A stretch of DNA of 41,884 bases, taken from positions 1 through 41,884 of the forward strand of contig NZ_MWLO01000138.1 of the NCBI RefSeq assembly GCF_002198735.1. Reading direction: 5' to 3'. This document shows, one piece after another, positions 22,784-40,336 of this stretch. The stretch comes from Ideonella sp. A 288 (GTDB taxonomy: Bacteria > Pseudomonadota > Gammaproteobacteria > Burkholderiales > Burkholderiaceae_C). The notes beneath the pieces were generated by a model that was given only the letters and a program-made list of their open reading frames with translations, did no database searches and was not told the DNA's origin. Position 1 is the first letter of the stretch. The number at the start of each line of letters is the position of its first letter. The position numbers and the translations under genes are program-made.

Positions 22784-23797
22784 TCATTCGACCGCCGCAG
22801 ACTCGTTCTCTGTGTGCCGGTCAGGCTCCGTGGTGCGGAGGATCTCGTTCAGAACGGAAGTGGCGTAGTTTCCGGCGGGCAAGGAGAAGGTGAGCACCAG
22901 TTGATTGGCTTGCAGCCATTCCCATGACATGTCTGCCGGCCTGGCCACCAGGGCGCGGCGATCCTGATCCAGACCGGCGTGTTCCATGCCGTCGCACAAG
23001 GTGGCGTGACGTTCAGCCACGCCGAGTTCCAGGGCCTGCGCTTGATCGGTGGTGGTCACGCGGCCCCGTCCCCAGAGCGGTCCGGTGGGCCGGCCCGCCT
23101 CGTCCATCACGTCGCCGGGCAGGGTCTTGCCCCAGAGTCCCTGCTGAATGCGCAGCGCCAGGACTTCATTGAAGACGAACGAGCGCACCGCCGACAGGTA
23201 GATGCCCTTCTTCTTCGGGTTGCGCACGCGTATTTCGCGCGCCAGCATGGCCCTGCCCTGCTCGACGTTGCCGCCCTCAAAGCCGAAGCGCTGAGCACCG
23301 AAGTAGTTGGGCACGCCTTGTGACGCAACGGCCTTCAGATTGGCCTCGATGGCGTCGCGGTCGCCGGTCACGTCACGCAGCACGATTCGGAATCGGTTGC
23401 CCTGCAGATCCCCGGGGCGCAGCTTTTTCACGTGGCGGCTCTGACTCAGAACCTTGAACTCCGGGTGCTGAAGCTGGGTCAGGTCGGGCGTCTCGCCCTT
23501 GGGCAGGTAGATGCTGAACCACTGACGGGTGATGGCGTAGCGGTCCTTGAGGCCGGCATAGCCCACGTCTCGTTCCTGCACGCTGGCGGCCTCGGCCAGC
23601 TGCTGGGCGACGAAGGCGGTGTTGGCACCGTTCTTTTCGATGTCCAGCCAGAGGTGTTCGCCCTCACCGGAGGGCAGCTGCAGCGGCAGCTCGGTCACGA
23701 TGAAATCCTCGTTGAGGAGTTTCAGGGTGGCCGTGGCGCCGCTGGCCGGAAAAGCGTTGGGCCACTGCGGCAAAGCCGTGTATCGAGCGTCGGTCAT
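22784..23797 (-). CDS. truD: tRNA pseudouridine(13) synthase
   Basis: A 337-residue TruD-family enzyme that converts U13 of certain tRNAs (tRNA-Glu in E. coli) to pseudouridine. The catalytic aspartate is D85 in G-L-K-D-R-Y-A. Other hallmarks are N-F-x-V-x-E-like N-D-E-D-F-I-V-T-E and P-N-Y-F-G-A-Q-R-F-G in the insertion-domain region. The ATG at 23,797 gives the usual family length; an open extension to 23,920 lacks conserved sequence. It is a housekeeping gene converging on the amidase operon. No companion such as ispF or surE is next to it. Confidence 0.93.
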   Translation of the reverse strand: MTDARYTALPQWPNAFPASGATATLKLLNEDFIVTELPLQLPSGEGEHLWLDIEKNGANTAFVAQQLAEAASVQERDVGYAGLKDRYAITRQWFSIYLPKGETPDLTQLQHPEFKVLSQSRHVKKLRPGDLQGNRFRIVLRDVTGDRDAIEANLKAVASQGVPNYFGAQRFGFEGGNVEQGRAMLAREIRVRNPKKKGIYLSAVRSFVFNEVLALRIQQGLWGKTLPGDVMDEAGRPTGPLWGRGRVTTTDQAQALELGVAERHATLCDGMEHAGLDQDRRALVARPADMSWEWLQANQLVLTFSLPAGNYATSVLNEILRTTEPDRHTENESAAVE

Positions 23798-24075
23798 GAT
23801 CGGTCTGACGGCACCAGCCGTAGTTAGGGGGACAGGCCGTCCAACCGACCAGGGGCAGTCCAAGCGGTGATTCTCTCCCGACCCGCATGCCTTGGCGAGC
23901 GCCAACAGATGCGACTTCAATGAGAACCGTTGCGCGCTGCGACAGGCGGCTTGCGGGCAGCGAAGTCAACTCACGGACCCGGCCAGTTGCCGCCGTTTGC
24001 CAACGGTCGATCCATGGAATCCCCTCCGCGAGACCTGCCTCGGCACGTGCGAGGGGTGGTTTTTCTCACCACCAC

Positions 24076-24972
24076 TCATGGGCCGTCCTCACTGGGCTGG
24101 CGACCCCGCATCGCGTCGACGCGGCCTGCGCGAAAGTCCCGTGGTGCCATGCCGTAGCGCCGCCGGAACTGCTCGCCGAAGTTGGACAGCGTCGGGAAAC
24201 CGCAGGCCTGCGCGATCTGCGCGATGGGTTCGCGGCCCTGCATCAGGCGCAGGGCCGCCCAGCCGCAGCGTGCGTCGTTCACGTAGGCGGTGAAGCTCTT
24301 GCCCACCTCGCGCCGAAAGAAGCGGCCGAAGGCCGCCGGGCTGACATGCGCCACCGCAGCGGCGTTCTCCACGGACAGTTTGTCGGCCAGATGCGCTTCG
24401 ATCCAGCTGAGCACGCGGTCGGCGCGCTGGGGGCTGGGCCCTGCCCGCAGCGCAGCCGTGTGGGTTGCCAGCAGGGGCGCCGACAGCTCGCGCAGCTCGG
24501 CGGCGCCTGCCAGCAAACAGCCCAGCACCTCGATGAACACCGCCACGCGGCGTTGCGCCGTTGCGCCAGGCAAGCGGCCGAGCAGGCTCTGCACCTCGGC
24601 GCGTGTGCCGCCCAGCACCTCCACGCCCGCAGCGGCCTGCACCAACAGCGGCGCGACCGCCTTGAGCTCAGGGAGCCCGCAGCGCAGGAGCCAGTCGGGA
24701 GGAAACTGCAGCACCGTCGCCGCGCAGCCCTGAGGCGATTGCACGCCCCGGCTGGCCCACAGGTGCGGGGTCTCGCTGCCCACCAGCACGAGATCACCGT
24801 CGAAGAAGGGCTCCACGCTGTCGCCCACCCAGCGCAGGCCCTGCCCGCGCTCGATCCAGGTCAACTCGAAGTGCCCATGGCGGTGCAGGCCGCCGCGGAA
24901 GGCGGGGAGTTCGAGGTGCATGCAACGCAGCGACTCCTCGGCGTGGTGGATCGACTCGCGGGCAATCCTCAT
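24076..24972 (-). CDS. AraC-family transcriptional regulator
   Basis: A 298-residue regulator with an N-terminal cupin-like sensing domain (H-R-H-G-H-F-E-L near residue 30-37, then F-D-G-D-L-V-L-V-G). The C-terminal double helix-turn-helix AraC domain spans about residues 190-285, containing A-A-A-V-A-H-V-S-P-A-A-F-G-R-F-F and I-A-Q-I-A-Q-A-C-G-F. It is divergent from the GH13 glucosidase at 25,110 across a 137-bp gap carrying repeated operator-like half-sites. It is therefore a likely regulator of that saccharide operon. The cupin type fits control by a sugar. Confidence 0.87.
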   Translation of the reverse strand: MRIARESIHHAEESLRCMHLELPAFRGGLHRHGHFELTWIERGQGLRWVGDSVEPFFDGDLVLVGSETPHLWASRGVQSPQGCAATVLQFPPDWLLRCGLPELKAVAPLLVQAAAGVEVLGGTRAEVQSLLGRLPGATAQRRVAVFIEVLGCLLAGAAELRELSAPLLATHTAALRAGPSPQRADRVLSWIEAHLADKLSVENAAAVAHVSPAAFGRFFRREVGKSFTAYVNDARCGWAALRLMQGREPIAQIAQACGFPTLSNFGEQFRRRYGMAPRDFRAGRVDAMRGRQPSEDGP

Positions 24973-25109: not shown

Positions 25110-26780
25110 ATGAGCAGTGACTGGTGGCGAGGTGCCACCCTCTACCAGATCTACCCGCGCAGCTTCGCGGACGCCAACGGCGACGGCGTCGGCGACCTGG
25201 CCGGCGCGACGGCGAAGCTGCCTTATGTCGCCGGGCTGGGTGTCGACGGCATCTGGCTCTCGCCCTTCTTCACGAGCCCGATGCGCGACTTCGGCTACGA
25301 CGTGGCCGACCACCTGGGCGTCGACCCGCTGTTCGGCACCGGGACCGACTTCGACGCCTTGCTGGCCGACGCCCACCGCCTGGGCCTGAAGGTGGTCATC
25401 GACCAGGTGTGGAGCCACACCGCCGCCGAGCACCCGTGGTTCGAGGAGAGCCGCACCAGCCGCGACAACGCCAAGGCCGACTGGTACGTGTGGGCCGATG
25501 CGAAGCCCGACGGCAGCCCACCCAACAACTGGCAAAGCTGGATGGGCGGCCCGGCCTGGCGCTGGGAACCGCGGCGACGGCAGTACCACCTGCACAACTT
25601 CCTGCCGCAGATGCCCGACCTGAACTTCCACTGCCCGGCGGTGCAGGACGCGGTGCTGGGCATCGCGCGGCACTGGCTGGAACGCGGCGTGGACGGCTTC
25701 CGCCTGGACACCGCCAACCTCTACTTCCACAGCCGCGGCCTGCAGGACAACCCACCGTTGCCCGAAGGGCGACGCGGTGATGCACCGGTGCTGATGCAGC
25801 AGCACGTGCACAACGCCGACCAGCCCGAGGCGCCGGCCTTTTTCGAGCGGCTGCGCGCGGTGATGGAGGGTCACGGCGCTCGCATGGCCGTGGCCGAGAT
25901 CGGCGGCGCCGAGCCCCTGCCAACGATGGTGGGCTACACGCAGGGCGCAAGCCGGCTGCACACGGCGTATTCGTTCGCCTTCCTGGGCGAACGGCCCAGC
26001 GCCGCGCAGGTGCTGCGCCACCTGGCGCCTTGGGGCCAGGGCGCCGGCCGCGAGGCCTGGCCGAGCTGGGCCTTCTCGAACCACGACGCGCCGCGCGTGG
26101 CCTCGCGCTGGGGTGGTGGCGCGGCGGGCGCCTTCGCCTTCGGGGGCCAGGCCGATGCCGGGCGCGTCGACGCCGGGGCCACGCCCATCACCTGGCTGGC
26201 CCTGCTGCTGGCGCTGCGCGGCACCGTTTTCCTGTACCAGGGCGAGGAACTGGGCCTGCCGCAAAGCACGCTGGCCCATGAAGACCTGCGCGACCCCTAC
26301 GGCCTGGCCAACTGGCCGCTGAACCCGGGCCGCGATGGCTGCCGCACGCCCTTGCCGTGGCAGGCCGATGCGGCGCAGCTCGGCTTCAGCCGCGCCGCGC
26401 GCACCTGGCTGCCGGTGGACCCGGCTCACGCACCGCTGGCCGTCGACCGGCAAGAGGCCGACCCCGCCTCGACCCTGCACGCCACGCGACGGCTGCTGGC
26501 TCTGCGGCGCGCGCACCCCGCGCTGCGCCTGGGCGACCTGGAAGCCCTGGTGGCCGAAGGCGACGTGCTGGTGCTGCGCCGAGAGCACACCGATGCCAGC
26601 GGCGCCGATGCGCTGCTGCTGGCCTTCAACCTGGGCGCCAGCCCTGCCACGGTGCCGCTGCCCGCGGCCAGCGCCTCGGCCCCCGGTGCTGCGCCGCTGT
26701 TCACGCACGCGGGTGCGGTGCTGCAGGGGCCGCAACTGCACCTGCCGCCGGGCGCGGTGCTGTTCACGCGGCTGGCCTGA
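25110..26780 (+). CDS. GH13 alpha-glucosidase
   Basis: A 556-residue cytoplasmic glycoside hydrolase family 13 enzyme of the oligo-1,6-glucosidase/alpha-glucosidase type. The N-terminal W-W-R-G-A-T-L-Y-Q-I-Y-P-R-S-F is typical. The catalytic nucleophile is D200 (G-F-R-L-D-T-A-N), the acid/base E263 (A-V-A-E-I-G-G) and the transition-state aspartate D326 (F-S-N-H-D-A-P-R). There is no signal peptide, so it acts on imported oligosaccharides or glucosides. AGGGA nine bases upstream supports the ATG at 25,110. It opens a seven-gene plus-strand operon ending with a sugar transporter. Confidence 0.92.
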   Translation: MSSDWWRGATLYQIYPRSFADANGDGVGDLAGATAKLPYVAGLGVDGIWLSPFFTSPMRDFGYDVADHLGVDPLFGTGTDFDALLADAHRLGLKVVIDQVWSHTAAEHPWFEESRTSRDNAKADWYVWADAKPDGSPPNNWQSWMGGPAWRWEPRRRQYHLHNFLPQMPDLNFHCPAVQDAVLGIARHWLERGVDGFRLDTANLYFHSRGLQDNPPLPEGRRGDAPVLMQQHVHNADQPEAPAFFERLRAVMEGHGARMAVAEIGGAEPLPTMVGYTQGASRLHTAYSFAFLGERPSAAQVLRHLAPWGQGAGREAWPSWAFSNHDAPRVASRWGGGAAGAFAFGGQADAGRVDAGATPITWLALLLALRGTVFLYQGEELGLPQSTLAHEDLRDPYGLANWPLNPGRDGCRTPLPWQADAAQLGFSRAARTWLPVDPAHAPLAVDRQEADPASTLHATRRLLALRRAHPALRLGDLEALVAEGDVLVLRREHTDASGADALLLAFNLGASPATVPLPAASASAPGAAPLFTHAGAVLQGPQLHLPPGAVLFTRLA

Positions 26781-26831
26781 GCGCGCGCCCGGTCACGCCT
26801 TTCGCTTCCTTCCAGACACCCTGCCAACGCC

Positions 26832-27677
26832 ATGCAGACGACAACCCGCCCGATGAACGACACCACCACCCTCTGGCCCGATCTCGACAGCCCCTATGCC
26901 CTTGACCCGGCGCAGGTCGACGCCTTCCGCCGCGATGGCTGCATCAAGCTCAAGCAGGTGCTGTCGCCCGACACGCTGGCCCACTTCGGGCGCGAGATCA
27001 CGCGGCTGACCATCGACCTGAACACCGAAAACCGCCCGCTGGCCGAGCGCAGCACCTACGACCGCGCCTTCCTGCAGGTGATGAACCTGTGGGAGCACAG
27101 CGCGCTGGCGGCGCGCTTCGTGATGGGCCAGCGGCTGGCGCGCCTCGCGGCCGATCTGCTTGAAGTGCGCGGCGTGCGCCTGTACCACGACCAGAGCCTG
27201 TACAAGGAACCCGGCGGCGGCATCACGCCGGCGCACGCCGACCAGTACTACTGGCCCCTGGCCAGCGACCGCACCATCACCGCGTGGATCCCGCTGCAGG
27301 CGGTGCCCACCGAGATGGGCCCGCTGGGCTTCTACGCCGGCAGCCAGGGCGTGGCCTTCGGGCGCGACCTGGGCATCAGCGACGAGAGCGAAGCGCGCAT
27401 CAGCGAAAACATGGCCCGCCACGGCTTCCCCTTCGAAGTGGGGCCCTTCGAGCTGGGCGAGGTGAGCTTCCACCTGGGCTGGACCTTCCACAAGGCCGGC
27501 CCCAACACCGGCACGCAGCCGCGCTCGGTGATGACGGTGATCTACATGGACGCCGACATGCACCTGCTGCCCGCGCTCAACGCCATCCAGGCCAACGACC
27601 GAGACCAGTGGTGCCCCGGTGCGCGCGAGGGCGAAGTCATCGCCACGCGCAAGAACCCGGTCATCTGGTCGCGTTGA
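26832..27677 (+). CDS. Phytanoyl-CoA dioxygenase (PhyH) family Fe(II)/2-oxoglutarate oxygenase
   Basis: A 281-residue PhyH-family protein. The iron-binding facial triad is visible as H135-x-D137 (P-A-H-A-D-Q-Y-Y) with distal H220 (F-H-K-A-G-P-N). R231 is placed to bind 2-oxoglutarate. The family couples oxidative decarboxylation of 2-oxoglutarate to hydroxylation, which on a methoxy group yields formaldehyde by O-demethylation. It lies between a glucosidase and a class III-type alcohol dehydrogenase, so a sugar-linked or aglycone substrate is likely. The actual substrate is unknown. The ATG at 26,832 is preferred; an in-frame ATG eight codons later (N-D-T-T-T follows) is possible. Confidence 0.82.
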   Translation: MQTTTRPMNDTTTLWPDLDSPYALDPAQVDAFRRDGCIKLKQVLSPDTLAHFGREITRLTIDLNTENRPLAERSTYDRAFLQVMNLWEHSALAARFVMGQRLARLAADLLEVRGVRLYHDQSLYKEPGGGITPAHADQYYWPLASDRTITAWIPLQAVPTEMGPLGFYAGSQGVAFGRDLGISDESEARISENMARHGFPFEVGPFELGEVSFHLGWTFHKAGPNTGTQPRSVMTVIYMDADMHLLPALNAIQANDRDQWCPGAREGEVIATRKNPVIWSR

Positions 27678-27688
27678 ACGCGCACCGC

Positions 27689-28849
27689 ATGGCTGCTCCC
27701 GAGCCGAAGAACGCCGCACCCACCCTGCAGGGCGACGCCGCCATCGGCGACGGCCACGGCGGCTTCGTCATCGAGCCGGTGTCGGTGCGCGCGCCTGCGG
27801 CCGGCGAGGTGCGCGTGCGCCTGACGGCCGCCGGCATCTGCCACACCGACCACGCGTCACTTCGATGGCCCGGCCCGCTGGTGCTGGGGCACGAAGGCGC
27901 GGGCGTGGTCGACAGCGTGGGGCCGGGCGTGGCCGCGTTGCACCCGCAGCTGCGCCCCGGGCAGCCGGTGCTGCTGAACTGGGCCATCCCCTGTGGCCGC
28001 TGCCCGCAGTGCCAGCGCGGGCGCGGCTCGCTGTGCGAGCGCACGCATGGCGTCGACACCACGCTGGGCCACAGCGCGCCGGCCCCGGGCCACACGCTGT
28101 GGCGCGGGCAGCCGGTGGAACGGTCGTTCAAGCTGGGCACCTTCGCCGAACACGCGCTGGTGCGTGCCGAGGCGCTGACCGTGCTGCCCGCGCAACTGCC
28201 CGCACGCCACGCCTGCATCCTGGGCTGCGGCGTGATGACGGGCGTGGGCGCGGCCGTCAACGTGGCGCAGGTGCAGCCCGGCGACACGGTGGCCGTGGTG
28301 GGCTGCGGCGGCGTGGGCCTGAGCGTGGTGCAGGGCGCGCGGCTGGCGGGCGCGGCCCGCATCGTCGCCATCGACCGCCGGCCCGCGGCCTTGCAGCGTG
28401 CCGTGGCGCTGGGGGCCACGCACACGCTGGAGCCCGCGGCCGACCACCTCAACGCAGAACAGCAGGGCGACCAGCTGGCCGCCGCCGTGCGCGCGCTGAC
28501 CGAAGGCCGCGGCGCCGACCACGCCTTCGAGGCCACGGGCGTGGCCGCGCTGGCCTTCCTGCCGCTGAAGCTGTGCCGCCACGGCGGCAATGCCGTGCAG
28601 CTCAGCGGTGCGCACGGCCCGGTGAGCGTGGAGATGCCGCAGTTCTGGTGGGACAAGCGCTACCTGGTGCCGCTGTATGGGGGTTGCCTGCCCGAACGCG
28701 ACTTCCCGCGCCTGTTCGACTGGGCTGCGCGCGGCGAACTGCAACTGGACAGCCTGGTCACGCACACCTACCGTCTGGACGACCTGGCGCAGGCGCTGGA
28801 CGACATGCTCGCCGGTCGCAGCGCCAAGGGCGTGATCGTCTTCGATTGA
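27689..28849 (+). CDS. Zinc-dependent alcohol dehydrogenase, class III-like
   Basis: A 386-residue medium-chain dehydrogenase. Catalytic zinc ligands are C51 (G-I-C-H-T-D-H), H68-E69 (L-G-H-E-G-A-G) and the cysteine of L-G-C-G-V-M-T-G. Structural zinc cysteines are C102, C105, C108 and C116, and V-V-G-C-G-G-V-G is the NAD motif. L-G-C-G-V-M-T-G-V-G and V-V-Q-G-A-R-L-A-G-A place it in the group that includes glutathione-dependent formaldehyde dehydrogenase, although aryl-alcohol and other dehydrogenases share this group. It starts 11 bases after the PhyH stop. A TTG at 27,674 would be an alternative coupled start. A role in oxidising a product of the dioxygenase is inferred. Confidence 0.85.
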   Translation: MAAPEPKNAAPTLQGDAAIGDGHGGFVIEPVSVRAPAAGEVRVRLTAAGICHTDHASLRWPGPLVLGHEGAGVVDSVGPGVAALHPQLRPGQPVLLNWAIPCGRCPQCQRGRGSLCERTHGVDTTLGHSAPAPGHTLWRGQPVERSFKLGTFAEHALVRAEALTVLPAQLPARHACILGCGVMTGVGAAVNVAQVQPGDTVAVVGCGGVGLSVVQGARLAGAARIVAIDRRPAALQRAVALGATHTLEPAADHLNAEQQGDQLAAAVRALTEGRGADHAFEATGVAALAFLPLKLCRHGGNAVQLSGAHGPVSVEMPQFWWDKRYLVPLYGGCLPERDFPRLFDWAARGELQLDSLVTHTYRLDDLAQALDDMLAGRSAKGVIVFD

Positions 28850-28874
28850 CTTGCACCACAGGCGCACCCCATCG

Positions 28875-29687
28875 ATGTTCCGAACCCTCGAAGTCTCCGA
28901 CCCGGCCCTGACGCCACCCGGCCTGCGTTTCGTCACCGTCAAGAGCGCGGCGCTGGGCCAGCGTGCCGACCTGCTGCTGTTCGTGCCGCCGCAGGCCGCA
29001 GCCGGGCGTGACGTGCCGCTGGTCGTGCTGCTGCACGGCGTCTACGGCTCGCACTGGGCCTGGGCCTTTCAAGGCGGTGCACATGTCACCGCACAACGGC
29101 TCATCGACGAAGGTGCCGTCCCGCCCCTGGTGCTGGCCATGCCCAGCGACGGCCTGTGGGGCGATGGCTCGGGCTACGTGCCCCATGCCGGACAGGACTT
29201 CGAGCGCTGGATCGTCGACGAGGTGCCAGCCGCCGCGCGCGAGGCCTGCAGCGCGTGCAGCGAGTCTTCGCCACTGTGCATCGCCGGCCTGAGCATGGGC
29301 GGCTTCGCAGCCCTGCGGCTGGCCGGCCGGCACCCGCAGCGCTTCGTGGCGGCGGCCGGGCATTCGTCGGTGACCGAGGCCGCGCAGCTCGACGCGCTCA
29401 TGGCCGAAACCCGCACCGGCTGGGCCGCTGCGCCGGCCGACACCAGCGTCATCGCCTCGCTCCGCGAAGCCGAGGCACCGCTGCCTGCACTGCGGTTCGA
29501 CTGCGGGCGCGACGACCCCTTCATCGATGGCAACCGCCGGCTGCACGTCGAACTGCAGGCCGCCGGCATCGCGCACGACTACGCCGAGCACGACGGCGGC
29601 CACGGCTGGGCCTATTGGGCGCAGCACCTCGACGACACGCTGCGCTTCTTCGGCCAGGCCCTCACGACGCGGACCCCGACACCATGA
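28875..29687 (+). CDS. Alpha/beta-hydrolase esterase, S-formylglutathione hydrolase-like
   Basis: A 270-residue putative esterase of the EstD/FrmB type. The nucleophile elbow is G-L-S-M-G-G near residue 140. A catalytic acid is likely in R-D-D-P-F-I-D near 215 and the histidine is in G-G-H-G-W near 243. There is no signal peptide. This fold group includes S-formylglutathione hydrolase and several acyl esterases. Placed directly after a class III-like dehydrogenase, it could finish formaldehyde oxidation. Equally, it could deacylate sugars. Its stop overlaps the ATG of the GH92 gene. The ATG at 28,875 is chosen over 28,851, which adds eight unremarkable residues. Confidence 0.8.
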   Translation: MFRTLEVSDPALTPPGLRFVTVKSAALGQRADLLLFVPPQAAAGRDVPLVVLLHGVYGSHWAWAFQGGAHVTAQRLIDEGAVPPLVLAMPSDGLWGDGSGYVPHAGQDFERWIVDEVPAAAREACSACSESSPLCIAGLSMGGFAALRLAGRHPQRFVAAAGHSSVTEAAQLDALMAETRTGWAAAPADTSVIASLREAEAPLPALRFDCGRDDPFIDGNRRLHVELQAAGIAHDYAEHDGGHGWAYWAQHLDDTLRFFGQALTTRTPTP

Positions 29688-31897
29688 ACCGGTCGGCGCT
29701 GAACCCGTTGGCAATGACCCCCAAGCGCTGGCTGTTGGCGCTGGCCCTGGCTGCCACGGCGGGCACCGCCGCAGGCCGCGGCGACCTCACGCGCCATGTC
29801 GACCCCTTCATCGGCACCGACGGCACCGGCCACGTCACGCCGGCGGCCATGGTGCCCTTCGGCATGGTGGCCCCCGGGCCGGACAACGCCGACCGCGGCT
29901 GGAGCTACAGCAGCGGCTACCAGTACCGTGCGCCGCGCATCCTGGGCTTTTCCAACACGCACATCAGCGGCGCAGGCATCCCGGAGCTGGGCGACGTGCT
30001 GCTGATGCCCGCCGCCGGCACACGCTGGACAGCCCAGAGCACCGACTTCTCGGCCGCGCCCGACAAGCAGACCGAAAGCGCCCGCCCCGGCGTCTACCGC
30101 GTCACGCTGCCAGGCCACGGCGTGCGCGTGGAGCTGACCACCACGCAGCGCGTGGCCGTGCACCGCTACACCTTCACGCAGGCCGGCCGCGTGCAGGTGC
30201 TGGTGGACCTGCAGCACGGCCTGCTGTTCGGCAACGGGCCGCGCGTCACGCAGGCCACGTCCAACCTGGACGTTGCACGTGGCGAGCTGACCGGCACCAC
30301 GCACGCGAAGAACTGGGTCGAGCGCGAGGCCTCGTTCATCGTGCGCTTCGACCGGCCCATCGCGCGCGTGACGCCGCTGCCGCCGCGCGAAGGCGATCGC
30401 GCTGCGCGCTACCTGCTCGACTTCGACCTCGGCACCGGCCACGTACTGCACGCCCGCGTGGCCCTGTCCACGGTGGACGTGGACGGCGCGCGCCGCAACC
30501 TGGCGGTTGACGAGGCCAAGCCCTTCGACGCCGTGCGCGCTGCGGCCGACGCGCAGTGGCAGCGGCTGCTGTCACGCATCGAGATCGACGCCGACGCGCG
30601 CTTCAAGACGATCTTCTACTCAGCCCTGTACCGCACGCTGCTGCACCCCAGCGACATCGCCGATGCCGACGGCCGCGTGCGCGGCCCCACGGGCCAGGTG
30701 ATGGCTGCACCGGGCGGCGTGTACTACAGCACCCTCAGCCTGTGGGACACCTTCCGCGGCGTGCACCCGCTGTTTACGCTGCTGGTGCCCGAGCGCGTGC
30801 CCGGCTTCATCAACACGATGCTGGCCCACCACCGTGCGCAGGGCTACCTGCCGCTGTGGACGGCCTGGGGTCGCGAGACGCACACGATGATCGGCAACCC
30901 GGCGCTGCCGGTGATTGCCGACGCGGTGGCCAAGGGCTTTCACCGGCAGGGCGCGGGCTTCGACCTGCAAGCCGCGCTGCAGGCGATGGTCGAGACCTCC
31001 ACGCTGCCGCGGCCGAACGCGCCCGAGTGGGCGCAGCGCAGCTGGGACGTTTACGAGCAGTTCGGCCACATCCCGCTGGACAAGATCAGCAACGAGTCGG
31101 TGAGCAAGACGCTGGAGCTCGGCATCGGCGACGACGCTGTGGCGCGCGTGGCGCGCGCGGCGGGCCGCCTTGACGTGGCCGAGCGCTTCGCGCGCCGCGC
31201 CCAGGGCTGGCGCAAGCTGTGGGACGTGCAGACGCAGATGATGCGCGGCAAGGACAGCGCCGGCCGCTGGCGCGAGCCCTTCGACCCGCTGGTGCCCACC
31301 AGCCCGATGAACAACCCGGGTGACTACACCGAGGCCAACGCCTGGCAGTACACGCTGACGCCGGCGCTGCACGACCCGGCCGGCCTGGTGGCGCAGATGG
31401 GCGGCGCCGCGGCCTTCGAGGCCTGGCTCGACCGCTTCTTCAGCGTGCAGGCGCCCGGCGATCACAAGCACCTGGGGCAGGAGGCCCTGATCGGCCAGTA
31501 CGCCCACGGCAACGAACCCAGCCACCACATCGCCTACCTCTACGCGTGGACAGCCTCGCCCGAGAAAGGCCAGGCGCTCGTACGCCGCATCGTGCGCAGC
31601 TTCTACGGCAGCGGCCCCGACGGCATCGTCGGCAACGACGACTGCGGGCAGATGAGCGCCTGGCTGGTGCTGTCCACGCTGGGCTTGTACCCGGTGGTGC
31701 CGGCCTCGGGCACGTATGTGGCCGGCGCGACGCTGGTGCGCCGCGCCACGCTGATGCGGGCCGACGGCACGCGGCTCGTCATCGTGCCCGGACGGCGCCC
31801 CGGCGTGTGGCTGGACGGGCAGCGCATGGACCCGAAGGCGCTGCCTCACGCCGCGCTGCTGCAGGCGCGACGGCTGGAAGTGGGGCCTGCGCGATGA
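29684..31897 (+). CDS. GH92 family alpha-mannosidase, exported
   Basis: A 737-residue glycoside hydrolase family 92 protein. These are calcium-dependent exo-acting alpha-mannosidases. After a signal peptide (about residues 1-32) come V-D-P-F-I-G-T-D-G near 40-48 and F-S-N-T-H-I-S-G-A-G. The acid glutamate region Y-T-E-A-N-A-W-Q-Y includes E550, and G-N-D-D-C-G-Q-M-S-A-W carries the base aspartates D652/D653. Export places it in the periplasm or outside. Coupled by ATGA overlaps to the esterase before and the GH13 enzyme after. A second ATG at 29,714 would give a shorter signal. Confidence 0.9.
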   Translation: MNRSALNPLAMTPKRWLLALALAATAGTAAGRGDLTRHVDPFIGTDGTGHVTPAAMVPFGMVAPGPDNADRGWSYSSGYQYRAPRILGFSNTHISGAGIPELGDVLLMPAAGTRWTAQSTDFSAAPDKQTESARPGVYRVTLPGHGVRVELTTTQRVAVHRYTFTQAGRVQVLVDLQHGLLFGNGPRVTQATSNLDVARGELTGTTHAKNWVEREASFIVRFDRPIARVTPLPPREGDRAARYLLDFDLGTGHVLHARVALSTVDVDGARRNLAVDEAKPFDAVRAAADAQWQRLLSRIEIDADARFKTIFYSALYRTLLHPSDIADADGRVRGPTGQVMAAPGGVYYSTLSLWDTFRGVHPLFTLLVPERVPGFINTMLAHHRAQGYLPLWTAWGRETHTMIGNPALPVIADAVAKGFHRQGAGFDLQAALQAMVETSTLPRPNAPEWAQRSWDVYEQFGHIPLDKISNESVSKTLELGIGDDAVARVARAAGRLDVAERFARRAQGWRKLWDVQTQMMRGKDSAGRWREPFDPLVPTSPMNNPGDYTEANAWQYTLTPALHDPAGLVAQMGGAAAFEAWLDRFFSVQAPGDHKHLGQEALIGQYAHGNEPSHHIAYLYAWTASPEKGQALVRRIVRSFYGSGPDGIVGNDDCGQMSAWLVLSTLGLYPVVPASGTYVAGATLVRRATLMRADGTRLVIVPGRRPGVWLDGQRMDPKALPHAALLQARRLEVGPAR

Positions 31898-34536
31898 GCG
31901 GGCATCTGTCGTGGCGCCTGGCCCTGCACGCTTGCACCCTGCTGCTGGCTGCGCTGGCGTTGCCCGCCGTCGCGCAGCCGCGTGGCCTGAAGCTGCACGT
32001 GCCCTCGCCCGACTGGCGCGACCAGGTCATCTACTTTGTGCTGACCGACCGCTTCGACGACGGCAACCCGCGCAACAACGAACAGGGGCTGGGCGAACAC
32101 AACCCGCGCGAAGGGCACATGTACAGCGGCGGCGACATCGAAGGCATCCGCCGCCGGCTCGACTACGTGCAGGCCCTGGGCGCCACCGCCGTGTGGCTGA
32201 CGCCGCCGGTGCTCAACCAGTGGCACGACACCACGCACGGCTTCTGGGGCTACCACGGCTACTGGGCCAGCCACTTCAAGCGCATGGACCCGCACGTCGG
32301 CACGCTGGCCGACTACCAGCGCCTGTCGGATGCGCTGCACCGCCGCGGCATGTACCTGGTGCAGGACGTGGTGGTGAACCACACCGCCAACTTCTTCAGC
32401 TATGGCCCAGGCTGGCGTGCCGACGACCCGGCGGCCGACTTCCGGCCCAACACGGGTTCGCGTCCCGTGCCGCGGCCGCTGCAGACGCCCTTCCACCTGA
32501 ACGATCCCCGCCGCGCCAATGACCGCCGCGCCGGCATCTACCACTGGACGCCGGAGATCCGCGACGTCACCGTGCGCGACGAGGAGCTGAACTTCCAGAC
32601 CTCGGGCCTGGACGACCTGAACACCGAGAACCCGCGCGTGCGCCGCGCCCTGCGCGACAGCTTCGGCCACTGGGTGCGCGAGGTCGGCGTGGACGCCTTC
32701 CGCATCGATACCGCGTACCACGTGCCGCCCGAGTTCTTCGAGGACTTCCTCTACGCCCAAGACCCGCAAGCCCCGGGTGTGGCCCATGTGGCGCGGCGCA
32801 CCGGGCGGCGTGACTTCCTGGCCTTCGGCGAAGGCTTCGGCATCGATCCCCCGGGCCAGACCCGATACACCCGCAAGCTGGAGAGCTACATCCGCGGCGA
32901 GGACGGCCGCCAGCGCCTGGGCGGCATGCTCAACTTCCCGCTCTACGCGGGCCTGGTGGACGTGTTCGCGCGCGGCCGGGCGCCGGTTGAACTGCAGCGC
33001 CGGGTGCAGGACATGGTGGCCGCCGACGCGCGCGGCATCGACCCGCGGCGCCTGCCCAGCTTCATCGACAACCACGACGTCGACCGCTGGCTGGCCGTCA
33101 GCGGCGAGCCGGCGATGAAGCAGGCGCTGCTGGCGATGATGACGCTGCCCGGCATCCCGGTGCTGTACTACGGCACCGAGCAGGGGCTGGTGGCGCAGCG
33201 CGCGTCGATGTTCGCCGGCGGATGGGGCTCGGGGGGGCGCGACCGCTTCGACACCCAGGCCCCGCTGTTCCGCTACACGCAGGCGGCGGTGGCGCTGCGC
33301 AAAGCCCACCGCGGCTTCTCGCGCGCGCTGCCGCAGCCGCTGCAGGCCGGCGGCGCCGGACCGGGCGTGCTGGCCTGGCGCAACGTGCATGAGGGGCAGT
33401 CGCGCATCGTGCTGTTCAACACCGCCGACGCGCCGCGCTTCGTCGACAACCTGGAGGTCGGCCCGCCGCAGGCGAGGCTGCGGCGCCTGTTCGACATCCA
33501 TGCCGACACGCCCGCGGCCCTGCCCCCTGAACTGCAGGTCAACGCGCAGGGCCGCGTGCACCTGAGCCTGCCGCCCCGCAGCGGCACGGTGTGGGCGGTG
33601 GAAGCAGCGCCGACCGCGACGCCGCCTGCGACCACGCTGCGCCCGCAGTTCGACGCGTTGCCCACCGAAGCGGTGCAGGGTGACTTCGACATCACCGGCC
33701 GAGCACCGCCCGGCGCGGCCATGGAAGTGATCGTCGATGGTGATGCCGATCGCGCCCAGCGTGTGGTGGCGGGGCCCGACGGGCGTTTCAGTGTCCGCAT
33801 CGACACCCGCCGCATGACCGACCCGACGCTGCTGCACCGCCTGGTGCTGCGCGCCAGCGGCACGGCCGCCGATGCGGGGGTCAGCGAGGCCGCCACCTTC
33901 CGCGTGGCGCTGCCCTGGCGGGTGCTGGCCGACGTGCCGCAGGGTGAAGCCACCGGCGGCGGCCCTCAGGGCCGCTATGTCTACCCCACGCACGAGAGCT
34001 ACACCCGGCAGATGGACCTGCGCCGCACGCGCGTGCTGTCCGCCGGCGGCGCCTTGCGCATCGAATTGGAGATGGCCGACCTGACGCGCGTCTGGGGGCC
34101 GGCCAACGGCTTCGACCACGTGGCCTTCTCGGTCTTCATCGAACTGCCCGGCCGCAGTGGCGGCGCCCGTGCGATGCCGGGACAGGATGCCGAGCTGCCC
34201 GAGGGCATGCGCTGGCACCTGCGCTTGCGCGCGCACGGCTGGAGCAACGCGCTCTTCGGCCCCGAAGGTGCAGACACCAACGCCGACGGCCGCAGCATCA
34301 CGCCCGCCGCCGAGATCGACACCGACGCCGCCCGGCGCACCGTGCGCTTGACCATCCCCAGCGAATCCCTGGGCGACCCGGCCAGCCTGAGCGGCGCCCG
34401 CGTCTTCGTCAGCACCTGGGACTGGGACGGCGGCTGGCGCCCGCTGGCGCCAGCGGCGGGCAGCTTCACCGTGGGTGGTGGCGACCCGGCGGCGCCCAAG
34501 GTGTGGAGCGCCAGCCCCGTGATCCGTCTGCCCTGA
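31894..34536 (+). CDS. Exported GH13 amylase-like enzyme with glucodextranase-type C-terminal domain
   Basis: An 880-residue secreted enzyme with a signal peptide at residues 1-28 (ending A-V-A-Q). The GH13 catalytic domain spans about 40-560: nucleophile D272 (D-A-F-R-I-D-T-A), acid/base E313 (A-F-G-E-G-F) and D395 (I-D-N-H-D-V-D). A linker with a small beta domain (about 610-720) follows. A C-terminal domain at about 720-875 resembles the binding module of glucodextranase (F-D-H-V-A-F-S-V-F-I-E-L-P and S-T-W-D-W-D-G-G-W). This architecture suggests an extracellular alpha-glucan hydrolase that generates oligosaccharides for the downstream transporter. The start overlaps the GH92 stop. Confidence 0.88.
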   Translation: MSGHLSWRLALHACTLLLAALALPAVAQPRGLKLHVPSPDWRDQVIYFVLTDRFDDGNPRNNEQGLGEHNPREGHMYSGGDIEGIRRRLDYVQALGATAVWLTPPVLNQWHDTTHGFWGYHGYWASHFKRMDPHVGTLADYQRLSDALHRRGMYLVQDVVVNHTANFFSYGPGWRADDPAADFRPNTGSRPVPRPLQTPFHLNDPRRANDRRAGIYHWTPEIRDVTVRDEELNFQTSGLDDLNTENPRVRRALRDSFGHWVREVGVDAFRIDTAYHVPPEFFEDFLYAQDPQAPGVAHVARRTGRRDFLAFGEGFGIDPPGQTRYTRKLESYIRGEDGRQRLGGMLNFPLYAGLVDVFARGRAPVELQRRVQDMVAADARGIDPRRLPSFIDNHDVDRWLAVSGEPAMKQALLAMMTLPGIPVLYYGTEQGLVAQRASMFAGGWGSGGRDRFDTQAPLFRYTQAAVALRKAHRGFSRALPQPLQAGGAGPGVLAWRNVHEGQSRIVLFNTADAPRFVDNLEVGPPQARLRRLFDIHADTPAALPPELQVNAQGRVHLSLPPRSGTVWAVEAAPTATPPATTLRPQFDALPTEAVQGDFDITGRAPPGAAMEVIVDGDADRAQRVVAGPDGRFSVRIDTRRMTDPTLLHRLVLRASGTAADAGVSEAATFRVALPWRVLADVPQGEATGGGPQGRYVYPTHESYTRQMDLRRTRVLSAGGALRIELEMADLTRVWGPANGFDHVAFSVFIELPGRSGGARAMPGQDAELPEGMRWHLRLRAHGWSNALFGPEGADTNADGRSITPAAEIDTDAARRTVRLTIPSESLGDPASLSGARVFVSTWDWDGGWRPLAPAAGSFTVGGGDPAAPKVWSASPVIRLP

Positions 34537-34545
34537 AAGCCCCCG

Positions 34546-36075
34546 ATGCTCGATGCCCAGAAGCGCCTGTCCACCGGCTTCCTCGTCCTGCTGAGCCTGC
34601 CCACCGCGGCCGTCGGCTTTGCCCTGTCGTCGGGCATCGCCACCACGACCTGGCTGCTGAGCACGCGCTACAACCTGCACCTGGAGAACATCGCGCTCAT
34701 CTGGCTGATGGGGCCGCTGATGGGGCTGCTGGTGCAGCCCCTCGTCGGGGCGCTGAGCGACCGCACCTGGCTGATGAAGGGCCGCCGGCGACCCTATCTG
34801 CTGGCTGGCGGCGTGGCGGGCGCGGCCTCGACCTACGCCATGCTGGCACTGGACAGCATCGCCATGGCCACCGGCCTGAGCCTGATGGCGGTGGCGGTGC
34901 TGGTGGCCCTGGTGGCCGACCTCGCCACCAACGTCACCTTCAATCCGGCACGCTCGCTGGTGGCCGACCTCACACCCGAGGGGCCGGCCCGCGTGCGCGG
35001 CTATGCCTGGATGCAGACGGTGTCGGGCGTGCTGGGCATCAGCGCGTACCTGATCTCGATCTTCTTCGGCAACCTCGCCCTGGTGCTGGTCACCGTGGCC
35101 GTGGTCTTCTTCCTGACGCTGCTGCCGCTGCTGTTCATCGAGGAGACGCCTCCTGCAGCCATGGCGGCCGTGGCAGCACCTGCGGCAGCCAGCGCTGATG
35201 GCGCGGCGCGGCGGGCCACCGGCATGGCCGCCTTCAAGGCGCTGTGGCCGATGGTCGGCTTCCTGGTCTACGGCGTGTTCGTCGCCGTTGACAAGCTCGT
35301 CTTCGGCGACGCGCTGGCGGCCTGGGCCGTGCCCCTGTTCCTGGCGACGGTGGGGCTGACGCTGCTGTGGGGCATCGCCATCGTCTGGCAGGGCCGCAGG
35401 CGGCCTTCGCCCCAGAACCGGCTGTGCACCATGCTGGTGGGGCACGGCTTCGCATGGCTGGGCGTGCAGAGCATGTTCGTGATGAGCTTCTTCTACGTGC
35501 GCGACTTCGTGGTGCCGCCGGCGGGTGCTTCGGTGCTGGCCGATGGGCTGTACCACCTGGCGAACAGCGCCGCGGCGACCACCGCCACGACGGCCGGCGA
35601 CACCGCGGGCCGCATCCTGTCGATGGGCTTCCTGCTGCTGAACCTGGTGGGCGCAGCGCTGCCCGTGCTGGTGCTCAAGCCGCTGTGCCTGCGCTTCGGC
35701 AAGGTCCGTGTGCACCGCAGCGCCATGGGCCTGATGGCCGCCGCCTATGCCTTCATCGTGCTGACGCCGACGAACGAGGCCTTCTACTACCTGGGCATGC
35801 TGCTGTGCGGCATCGGCTGGTCGTCGCTGATTTCCATCGTCTTCGCGATCTATTCGGAATCCGTCGACTCCCGCGAGATGGGCGTCAGCATGGGCGTGTT
35901 CAACTCCAGCCTGGTGCTGCCGGCCCTGGTGGTGCCCGGGCTGCTGAAGCTGTCGGATGCCCTTGATCAGCACCGCTGGGTGTTCGCGCTGTTCGCTGTC
36001 TGCCTGGCGCTGTCGTTCGCCTTCTGGTGCGCTGTGTCTGAGCGTGAGACCGCCTGTGCAGGGCCCGTTGACTGA
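34546..36075 (+). CDS. Sugar:cation symporter, SLC45/GPH-like major facilitator
   Basis: A 509-residue membrane protein with about 12 helices and the loop motif G-R-R-R-P-Y (near residue 80), characteristic of sucrose/maltose-type symporters (SLC45, SUT1, GPH). A long Ala-rich cytoplasmic loop lies near 205-225. It follows the secreted GH13 enzyme by nine bases and closes the operon. It would carry released oligosaccharides or glycosides across the inner membrane to the cytoplasmic glucosidase at 25,110. No TonB receptor is in the window, so outer-membrane passage must use a porin or a gene elsewhere. Confidence 0.87.
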   Translation: MLDAQKRLSTGFLVLLSLPTAAVGFALSSGIATTTWLLSTRYNLHLENIALIWLMGPLMGLLVQPLVGALSDRTWLMKGRRRPYLLAGGVAGAASTYAMLALDSIAMATGLSLMAVAVLVALVADLATNVTFNPARSLVADLTPEGPARVRGYAWMQTVSGVLGISAYLISIFFGNLALVLVTVAVVFFLTLLPLLFIEETPPAAMAAVAAPAAASADGAARRATGMAAFKALWPMVGFLVYGVFVAVDKLVFGDALAAWAVPLFLATVGLTLLWGIAIVWQGRRRPSPQNRLCTMLVGHGFAWLGVQSMFVMSFFYVRDFVVPPAGASVLADGLYHLANSAAATTATTAGDTAGRILSMGFLLLNLVGAALPVLVLKPLCLRFGKVRVHRSAMGLMAAAYAFIVLTPTNEAFYYLGMLLCGIGWSSLISIVFAIYSESVDSREMGVSMGVFNSSLVLPALVVPGLLKLSDALDQHRWVFALFAVCLALSFAFWCAVSERETACAGPVD

Positions 36076-38365: not shown

Positions 38366-38500
38366 ATGACCGAGTTGCTGCAAATTGACCTGGCCCTCAT
38401 TCTGCGCGACTTGCACCAGGCGCGCGCGCAAGGCCATGTGAGCAGGCTTGCGCTGCTTGCGAGGTCCGCAGGCGTCCGATGGGCTGGTCGTGCGTCAGTC
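38366..38500 (+). pseudogene. Truncated paralogue of the small helical protein at 10,927
   Basis: From the ATG at 38,366 the frame reads D-L-A-L-I-L-R-D-L-H-Q-A-R-A-Q-G-H-V-S-R-L-A-L-L and then R-W-A-G. This parallels D-L-L-G-D-L-W-H-A-R-R-Q-G-D-M-G-R-L-A-L-L and R-W-A-R in the gene at 10,927. The similarity ends near 38,490, where the 3' end of the GH13 gene begins on the other strand, and the charged C-terminal half is missing. It is therefore probably a remnant, although the start is intact. The preceding 220 bp after the membrane protein hold nothing I can name. Confidence 0.5.
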
Positions 38501-40336
38501 AGGCCCGCAGACAACGCAGCCCGCGGCGGGCAAGTCGAGCCAGACGGCACTGCGCCCTGCGACGAGAACGACGGTGAGCGAGGTACCGACCAGCGCTGGA
38601 TCCGACGCGTAGCGGCAGACGAGCCGGCGGCCGGGCGGCGACAGACCGGCGTCGACGTTGACCCAGGCGGCGCGGGCACCGCCTGAATCGGTGTTGATGG
38701 CGCACAGCCATTCCTGATCGAGGAAGAGCCTCGACCAGGCCACGACCGAGCGGATCTGCCCGCCCACCATCGCGGGCAAGCCGAAGCTGTGGCCGTCGCC
38801 GGAGATCTCGCGCAGGTACTGTCGACCACGGCGCAGCGCCAGGCTGCTGCGGCGGACGGCCAGCAGCGCCGCGACGCTGCGAAAGAGCGGCAGGGTTTCG
38901 TCGAAGGCATGGCGGTCCGTCGAGCGAAAGGCACCGAAGTCGCCGCCGAACATGGTCTCGCGAATGTAGCGATCGTTGTCTCCCGCGCCGTCGAAGCCTT
39001 GCTCGCTGCCGTAGTAGATGCACGGGATGCCGAGCGTCAGCGCGTTCAGAACCATGGCGTTCAGCGCGAACGGCGCACCCCCGTCGGCGGCGAAGCGCGC
39101 CTTGTGCGGCCCCTTCCTCACCTGGTCATGGTCGTCGTACAGCGTGACGACCTTGTCGCGGAACCAGACGTGGCTGTCCTTGCCGAGCTCGTAGGAATTG
39201 CGGAAGAGGTCGAAGTAGTCCGAAGGATTCCGATGGCCCTTGGCGAGGTATTCGAGCTTGTCCGGGATGTCGTCGATGCCAAGGGCGGCGTCCAGGCCCG
39301 TGGCCTCGCGCAGCGCGAAAGCGTTGCCGCGTCCTCCGGTGATCTCGCCGATCAGGATGAAGTGCTCCTTGCCGATCGACTGGGCGAATTCGTGGATGCA
39401 GGCGGTGAAGTAGCGCACGGCTCCCGGGTCCATGTGCTTGACCGTGTCGATGCGAAAGCCGTCGATATCGGCGAACGCAATCCAGTACTGGTACGCCCGC
39501 ACCAGTGCTCGCAACGCAGGCGACACCGCGTAGTGGTCGATGGACCCCACCCCAAGGTGCACATCCTTCAAGTCGAGAAAGTCGCCTTCCAGGAACTCGG
39601 GGGCGTAGTCCCAGTTGTCGATGCGGCCCTTGCGGGTGAAGGCGTCGGCCTGCTGCAACTCACGCGGCCAGACGGCTGCGTCGGGGTCGGCGGTGGTCTG
39701 CGGAAACGGAAGCGTGGCGCCGCCCGCCGCGTCCCTCCACCCTTTGACCTCATAGGCGCCGCCATCCCAACGCGGGTCAAAACCGCTGTCTGTGGGGTAG
39801 CGGTCCGGGTCGTAGTCGAACACCGGACCGGTGTGGTTCAGGATGATGTCGAGGATGACGTGGATGCCATGGGCGTGCGCCGTGGCGACCAGGTCACGCA
39901 GATCATCGGATGAGCCGAAGCGCGGCTCGACGGCAAGAAAGTCCTGCACGCCGTAGCCGTGATACGACTCGGCCCACGGAGGCTGCTTGAACACCGGGCT
40001 CACCCAGATCGCCGTGATGCCCAGCCGTGCGAGGTAGCCGATCTTGCTCGTCGCCCCTTTCAGCGTGCCGCCAACGAAGCGCCCCCCGGCGTCGCGCCAG
40101 GCCGCGGCGGCGGCACCGCTTCCGACTGCACTGTCGAAGTCGTTCGGCGCAAAGTAGCGCACCGTGCCGGGCCCAGTGACCAGGAAGCCATCGTTGCCGA
40201 CGTAGTCGGTCTCCCTGCCGTCCGAGAATCGGTCGAGCATGAAGAAGTAGAGCGTCTGGTCCTCCCAGGCTGCGGGCGACGGGTGAAAGTGCCTGTTCGT
40301 CAGCAGCGCAAAGTCGATGTCGAATACCGATTGCAT
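38495..40336 (-). CDS. GH13 alpha-amylase family protein, cytoplasmic
   Basis: A 613-residue GH13 enzyme without a signal peptide. Motifs: D-I-I-L-N-H-T-G near residue 163-170; nucleophile D297 (G-F-R-I-D-T-V-K-H); acid/base E331 (I-G-E-I-T-G); and D404 (D-D-H-D-Q-V-R). The N-terminus includes L-Y-F-F-M-L-D-R-F-S-D-G, typical of amylases that act on intracellular glucans or trehalose-type sugars. Product specificity cannot be told. It lies 95 bp downstream of, and on the same strand as, the PHB depolymerase-type gene, with a GGGAAGGG site before the ATG. It is separate from the saccharide operon at 25-36 kb and not closely similar to its GH13 enzymes. Confidence 0.88.
   Translation of the reverse strand: MQSVFDIDFALLTNRHFHPSPAAWEDQTLYFFMLDRFSDGRETDYVGNDGFLVTGPGTVRYFAPNDFDSAVGSGAAAAAWRDAGGRFVGGTLKGATSKIGYLARLGITAIWVSPVFKQPPWAESYHGYGVQDFLAVEPRFGSSDDLRDLVATAHAHGIHVILDIILNHTGPVFDYDPDRYPTDSGFDPRWDGGAYEVKGWRDAAGGATLPFPQTTADPDAAVWPRELQQADAFTRKGRIDNWDYAPEFLEGDFLDLKDVHLGVGSIDHYAVSPALRALVRAYQYWIAFADIDGFRIDTVKHMDPGAVRYFTACIHEFAQSIGKEHFILIGEITGGRGNAFALREATGLDAALGIDDIPDKLEYLAKGHRNPSDYFDLFRNSYELGKDSHVWFRDKVVTLYDDHDQVRKGPHKARFAADGGAPFALNAMVLNALTLGIPCIYYGSEQGFDGAGDNDRYIRETMFGGDFGAFRSTDRHAFDETLPLFRSVAALLAVRRSSLALRRGRQYLREISGDGHSFGLPAMVGGQIRSVVAWSRLFLDQEWLCAINTDSGGARAAWVNVDAGLSPPGRRLVCRYASDPALVGTSLTVVLVAGRSAVWLDLPAAGCVVCGPD

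Follow-up and report, generated by a model that had tools for sequence, protein, structure and literature searches.

What does an Fe(II)/2-oxoglutarate dioxygenase do when its gene is followed by those of a zinc-dependent dehydrogenase and an esterase in the midst of an alpha-glycan operon? The question is raised by a contig of Ideonella sp. A 288 (NZ_MWLO01000138.1), analysed here over its whole length of 41,884 nucleotides (the window; C44:1-41884) and belonging to a genome of 6.98 Mb in 164 contigs that is 99.99% complete. At positions 25110-36075, genes follow one another in the order glycoside hydrolase (GH) family 13, PhyH-type dioxygenase (PhyH), alcohol dehydrogenase (ADH), esterase, GH92, GH13 and an MFS transporter (Table 1). 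A first-pass annotation had placed dioxygenase, dehydrogenase and esterase in one operon, and the coordinates confirm this: the gaps are 51 base pairs (bp) for GH13/PhyH, 11 bp for PhyH/ADH and 25 bp for ADH/esterase, the GH92 start at 29684 overlaps the esterase end (ATGA) and the GH92 end overlaps the second GH13 start at 31894. The annotation had also proposed that the operon demethylates O-methylated sugars, with the dioxygenase replacing a cytochrome P450. We find partial support for this proposal: of the readings considered, demethylation fits best, but both helper enzymes had been assigned to the wrong families. We conclude that the operon probably encodes a variant of the module for methyl-sugar demethylation, one built on an Fe/2-oxoglutarate enzyme. 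On this best reading the PhyH-type version is new, P450-type methyl-sugar demethylation with the same ADH clade being known already.

Family membership of the dehydrogenase and esterase

The dehydrogenase had been labelled class III, a label that its scores do not sustain. Against the FrmA model of NCBIfam (TIGR02818) it reaches 211.2 bits, the cut-off being 543.95, and its best-scoring NCBIfam model, TIGR03989, is likewise far under its cut-off (261 of 440 bits). It shares a superfamily and the zinc-site cysteines and histidine with Escherichia coli FrmA but is 34% identical to it, and in an alignment the window ADH and the three other clade members included all lack, by deletion, the acidic loop (DPEG) that follows the first zinc cysteine of FrmA. 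A later arginine of E. coli FrmA is not conserved in the aligned ADHs; we take both this residue and the loop to contact glutathione. Among solved chains it comes closest to 8h2a and 8h2b, with 359 and 350 bits against 188 for the next. The two structures belong to FoADH (Formosa agariphila) and ZoADH (Zobellia galactanivorans), enzymes whose genes adjoin a cytochrome P450 that demethylates 6-O-methyl-D-galactose (PMC10033563). A Zobellia mutant deleted for the ADH gene is impaired in growth on 6-O-methylgalactose and not on galactose (PMC10033563). Neither FoADH nor ZoADH was active on formaldehyde, whether supplied alone or together with a thiol (glutathione, mycothiol, bacillithiol, cysteine, coenzyme A or ergothioneine) (PMC10033563).

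In a tree of 52 rows, 47 ADHs including those of the window, FoADH and ZoADH form one clade with 99% support in the Shimodaira-Hasegawa-like approximate likelihood ratio test (SH-aLRT); the outgroup, some of whose branches are very long, combined E. coli FrmA with four other ADHs, and this tree, like that of the esterases, is a quick tree with SH-aLRT support only. One subgroup (96%) holds 31 proteobacterial rows, 27 with PhyH and 4 with no oxygenase found, and the other (95%) holds 16 rows of the P450 type, the Verrucomicrobiota type described below and others. The ADH of L049, which is in two frames, was left out of the tree. Judged by its sequence, the dehydrogenase is best assigned to the FoADH/ZoADH clade and not to FrmA. 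In the betaproteobacterium AAP51 (L049:9377-10971) the ADH is split into two frames while the relatives of the neighbouring genes are full-length.

The esterase, annotated as EstD/FrmB-type, likewise falls outside the family proposed for it, with 38.2 bits for the S-formylglutathione hydrolase model of NCBIfam (TIGR02821; cut-off 281.7). It belongs to the same superfamily as E. coli FrmB and has the same serine-hydrolase motif, but the two are 24% identical over 189 columns (40 bits). Within the esterase family the nucleophile motif GLSMGG is present in 40 of 40 rows, and 36 of these rows, including that of the window protein, show a rough C-terminal H-x-W pattern; both features are common to many esterases. 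The closer relative is the esterase of plasmid pSD15 of Microscilla sp. PRE1, with 48% identity over 263 columns (264 bits). We regard the window esterase as a relative of the esterase beside a demethylase-type P450, and not as FrmB. An identity of ADH and esterase as FrmA and FrmB was rejected, the cut-offs being far off and the loop deleted.

The pSD15 locus (L103) is arranged as P450-ferredoxin-reductase / AraC / ADH-esterase. Its ADH and esterase genes meet end to end and adjoin genes for the P450, a 2Fe-2S ferredoxin and a flavin adenine dinucleotide (FAD) reductase. The P450 matches the solved P450 6g5o with 666 bits (next 152), which we take to be the Zobellia demethylase. Compared with the window, ADH and esterase are each 48% identical, adjacent and in the same order; where pSD15 has P450, ferredoxin and reductase the window has PhyH, and the neighbour in pSD15 is a beta-agarase. 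In the Zobellia/Formosa cluster, as in the window, the oxygenase is accompanied by an ADH of this clade, an esterase and glycoside hydrolases, and the type of reaction is presumably shared, from a methyl ether to an alcohol and a one-carbon product (PMC10033563). Window and cluster differ in the oxygenase (PhyH-type without redox partners as against P450), the hydrolases (GH13/GH92 as against GH2/GH16) and the hosts (proteobacteria for the PhyH type, Flavobacteriia for the cluster) (PMC10033563). ADH and esterase genes of the cluster type thus lie side by side in the window, while a search of its own genome found no demethylase P450 with redox partners; the single P450 match at E 1e-20 has 29% identity and lies on another contig. 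For the annotated idea of demethylation by a dioxygenase instead of a P450, this close kinship with the helper pair of 6-O-methylgalactose demethylation gives strong indirect support, from which we infer the reaction of PhyH itself.

One pair beside different oxygenases

Genome contigs were scanned with the window ADH, yielding 69 loci, of which 41 (L009-L049) have an ADH at least 45% identical and 28 (L050-L077), with other ADHs at 27-35% identity, served as controls; neighbours were counted within about 5.5 kilobases (kb) on the same strand. PhyH and esterase accompany the ADH in 28 of the 41 loci, one of them (L046, from an acidobacterium) with a different PhyH. An oxygenase candidate from Verrucomicrobiota is found with the esterase in three further loci and alone in two; four loci have the esterase alone and four have neither oxygenase nor esterase, so that an esterase is present in 35/41. 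The reading frame labelled PhyH in L047 is on the opposite strand and was excluded from the alignment, the tree labels and these counts. PhyH or the Verrucomicrobiota candidate is thus present in 33/41 loci of the ADH clade compared with 0/28 controls, and no control has PhyH, the candidate or the esterase within the same distance. Where PhyH is of the window type, GH13 is always nearby (27/27 versus 0/28 controls), GH92 usually so (22/27, three of these at 30-37% identity, versus 0/28), and an AraC relative is found in 16/27. Since the PhyH-ADH-esterase arrangement recurs in beta-, gamma- and alphaproteobacteria, it is not due to chance.

The P450 also occurs with this ADH in the phylum of the window. 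Among 398 genomes drawn from it, six carry the ADH, and three of these six, from the same class as the window and other families, have a demethylase-type P450 at 65-73% identity. It lies 1.9 kb from the ADH once, with a reductase gene between and galactose-pathway genes adjoining the P450, and 21-23 kb away twice. No window-type PhyH was found in these three genomes at E 1e-8. Conversely, the demethylase P450 is absent from all 14 PhyH-type genomes tested, the window's included (best match 30% identity). In one of the three P450 genomes another PhyH-family gene stands directly upstream of the demethylase-type P450 (L125:6418-7176).

In five Verrucomicrobiota loci the ADH is preceded by a member of a protein family, roughly 480 residues long, in which two ExxH motifs are invariant. 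Searches with these proteins returned no match in Pfam (L036, L038, L039), NCBIfam (L036, L040) or among solved structures (L036), and a structure prediction from five sequences had a mean predicted local distance difference test score (pLDDT) of 49.7. A full FAD/2Fe-2S reductase gene lies beside the candidate in the near-identical loci L036 and L037, a short frame resembling part of a reductase in L038 and L040, and none was found in L039. The two motifs and the reductase gene of L036/L037 raise the possibility of an undescribed diiron oxygenase. P450s at 45% and 43% identity to the demethylase type were also detected in the genomes of L039 and L041, respectively.

The neighbouring sugar genes vary with the oxygenase. 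In the P450 locus L084 they are those for GalT, galactokinase, an epimerase and an aldose epimerase. In the Verrucomicrobiota locus L036, where the candidate perhaps serves methyl-rhamnose, they are those for L-rhamnose isomerase and an FGGY kinase, and in the PhyH loci GH13; this fits a single helper pair with different oxygenases for different methyl sugars. Taken together, comparison of these loci indicates that one ADH-esterase pair accompanies three unrelated types of oxygenase: P450, PhyH and the Pfam-less candidate.

The dioxygenase, its proposed reaction and the alternatives

PhyH scores 78.5 bits for PF05721 (cut-off 22). The first-pass reading that its iron and 2-oxoglutarate residues are intact proved correct: H128-x-D130, H213 and R224 are invariant in 29 aligned rows and align with those of SnoN. 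A structure model (pLDDT 90.2), built on an alignment that did not include the five PhyH relatives found in L094-L098, has SnoN and SnoK and then MysH as its nearest solved folds. They share the PhyH fold but are 18-26% identical in structural alignment, and SnoN and SnoK, like presumably MysH, are biosynthetic, whereas PhyH is proposed to be catabolic. We know of no sugar O-demethylase in the PF05721 family, and the literature in open-licence PMC papers, which is weak evidence of absence, yielded neither a PhyH nor another Fe/2-oxoglutarate enzyme with this activity. PhyH is accordingly presented here as a candidate O-demethylase of a sugar methyl ether.

As proposed, the operon would import and cleave O-methylated alpha-glucosides, and alpha-mannosides too where GH92 is present. 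PhyH would hydroxylate the methoxy carbon of the freed methyl sugar, and the resulting hemiacetal would break down, leaving the unmethylated sugar and a one-carbon unit. This would be the reaction that P450 and redox partners perform on 6-O-methylgalactose in marine Flavobacteriia, one self-contained iron enzyme standing in for P450, ferredoxin and reductase. ADH and esterase would be the helper pair of the P450 system, acting on a product that all of the oxygenases have in common. GH13 at every window-type PhyH locus points to an O-methylated alpha-glucoside as substrate, and GH92, together with GH125 in L012, to mannosides. A possible source is the N-glycans of Chlorella vulgaris, which end in 3-O-methyl and 3,6-di-O-methyl mannose and exemplify the O-methylated sugars found in algal glycans (PMC6344472). 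For demethylating such sugars we found no route other than P450 in open-licence PMC papers, and a PhyH version without redox partners should be easy to express and assay. Locus L012 (1425-4410) has a second, different PhyH gene and the GH125 alpha-mannosidase gene beside its window-type PhyH.

The fate of the one-carbon unit had been assigned to a class III ADH and an S-formylglutathione hydrolase. This part of the annotation is not supported, as neither family was matched, the characterised relatives are inactive on formaldehyde with any thiol tested (PMC10033563), and Fae is present. In a search of the genome no protein exceeded the cut-off for FrmA or for FrmB, and two Fae genes over cut-off were found elsewhere. 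Fae is the entry enzyme of another formaldehyde route, so formaldehyde can probably be handled elsewhere in the genome. A tentative and rather doubtful alternative for the pair is a general off-loading module for the three oxygenases. The oxygenase would form a sugar O-hydroxymethyl hemiacetal, the ADH would oxidise this to a sugar formate ester, and the esterase would split the ester into sugar and formate, free formaldehyde being largely avoided; the logic would be that of FrmA-FrmB, with the substrate's own hydroxyl replacing glutathione. A precedent is the conversion of the methanol-formaldehyde hemiacetal into methyl formate by a yeast ADH (PMC12572079). Off-loading would explain why ZoADH is needed on 6-O-methylgalactose despite its inactivity on formaldehyde and thiols, but the narrow active site of FoADH and ZoADH (PMC10033563) counts against it. 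The occurrence of the same pair beside three oxygenases makes it testable why a formaldehyde-inactive ADH is needed on a methyl sugar.

Several observations weigh against sugar demethylation by PhyH. The closest solved relatives, SnoN and SnoK, are by their structure names an epimerase and a carbocyclase of nogalamycin biosynthesis, presumably acting on its sugar part, and we know of no activity for any member of the window-type PhyH family. In the esterase tree the outgroup, which has very long branches, is separated with 77% support only. No oxygenase of the types searched was found near the ADH in 8 of the 41 loci (one a short contig, L016, of 7974 bases) and no esterase in 6, and all these counts come from loci gathered with the window ADH's own peptides, several of them near copies, and are not independent. 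Three Erythrobacteraceae loci (L018, L019, L028) have ADH-esterase and an MFS gene, and neither window-type PhyH nor demethylase P450 was found in their genomes, which were searched for these two and not for other oxygenases. FoADH and ZoADH have a narrow active site and favour aromatic and furan aldehydes in vitro (PMC10033563). Finally, window-type PhyH was detected in 8 of 299 sampled genomes of the family, and 5 of the 8 lack the ADH clade. A failure of the three genes to travel together had been named as evidence against demethylation; they do travel together from the ADH side (28/41 loci) but not from the PhyH side. A strict three-gene unit was rejected, given PhyH with GH13 but no ADH in these five genomes and ADH-esterase without a recognised oxygenase in Erythrobacteraceae. 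At the corresponding site the five carry other genes, and one of the five genomes has an ADH at 38% identity that groups with FrmA. In two cases, both without ADH, the product of the gene directly behind PhyH has either a weak Pfam match that is xylose-isomerase-like (L094:10385-11272) or no Pfam match (L097:1718-2722).

Instead of attacking a methyl ether, PhyH might hydroxylate a sugar at a ring or deoxy carbon, or epimerise the sugar like SnoN, with ADH and esterase acting on that alcohol or on sugar esters. The SnoN and SnoK folds, the five of eight PhyH genomes without ADH and the weakly xylose-isomerase-like or unassigned protein adjoining PhyH in two of them are consistent with this, but this reading leaves unexplained why a methyl-sugar P450 has the same ADH-esterase pair beside it, and FoADH and ZoADH lacked activity on the sugar substrates tested (PMC10033563); we consider it unlikely.

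Still less likely is an aromatic side-chain system, in which the operon would cleave glycosides that bear feruloyl-type or methoxy-aryl groups. The esterase would then serve as feruloyl esterase, the ADH would act on aryl alcohols or aldehydes, and PhyH would hydroxylate or demethylate the aromatic part. The best solved matches of the esterase are indeed named ferulic acid esterases, and one relative locus (L012) has a gene of the tannase/feruloyl-esterase family; these matches reach at best 81 bits, however, compared with 264 to the P450-linked esterase, and no aromatic-ring catabolism genes were seen among the Pfam-scanned neighbours, which are a part of all neighbours. A grouping of the dehydrogenase with aryl-alcohol enzymes had been named as evidence against demethylation, and the outcome is mixed: it falls in the FoADH/ZoADH clade, yet these enzymes prefer aromatic and furan aldehydes in vitro, although the deletion phenotype of the Zobellia relative is on a sugar, 6-O-methylgalactose (PMC10033563).

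Classical detoxification, with a glutathione-dependent FrmA and an S-formylglutathione hydrolase clearing formaldehyde made by the dioxygenase, is highly improbable: it fits the gene order oxygenase-ADH-esterase, the broad FrmA/FrmB superfamilies of both proteins and the lack of any other protein over the FrmA/FrmB cut-offs in the genome search, but not the scores of 211/544 bits (TIGR02818) and 38/282 bits (TIGR02821), the deleted D-P-E-G loop and unconserved arginine, the inactivity of FoADH and ZoADH on formaldehyde with six thiols (PMC10033563) or the two Fae genes.

Gene list and neighbouring features

Table 1. Features of the window and, in the last row, of the Verrucomicrobiota loci
Feature	Coordinates	Strand	Remarks
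AraC-family regulator	24076..24972	(-)	divergent, 137 bp from operon; Pfam HTH_18, HTH_AraC
GH13 alpha-glucosidase	25110..26780	(+)	Pfam Alpha-amylase; best solved relative alpha-glucosidase 3wy1, 561 bits
PhyH-type Fe(II)/2-oxoglutarate dioxygenase, proposed sugar methyl-ether demethylase	26832..27677	(+)	alternative internal ATG start 26853
Zinc-dependent dehydrogenase (ADH), FoADH/ZoADH clade, not FrmA	27689..28849	(+)	Pfam ADH_N/ADH_zinc_N 72/72 bits
Alpha/beta-hydrolase esterase, kin of P450-linked esterase, not FrmB	28875..29687	(+)	Pfam Esterase 68.5 bits
GH92 alpha-mannosidase-type hydrolase	29684..31897	(+)	Pfam GH92; best solved relative 7zgm (GH92), 557 bits
GH13 amylase-type enzyme with glucodextranase C-terminal module	31894..34536	(+)	Pfam Alpha-amylase, Glucodextran_C
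MFS sugar transporter (GPH-like)	34546..36075	(+)	Pfam MFS_1/MFS_2; weak TIGR01301, 61/511 bits
Verrucomicrobiota candidate	L036:7424-8872, L037:7424-8872, L039:7983-9506, L040:8223-9656, L038:1-699		

Besides 7zgm, most solved relatives of the GH92 protein bear the name alpha-1,2-mannosidase, and the N-terminus of the second GH13 enzyme, judged by eye, resembles a signal peptide. Two frames on the minus strand were recognised from their translations by eye, no search being made: one at 22784-23920, upstream of the AraC gene, is TruD-like (pseudouridine synthase), and one at 38495-40336, beyond the operon, is GH13-like.

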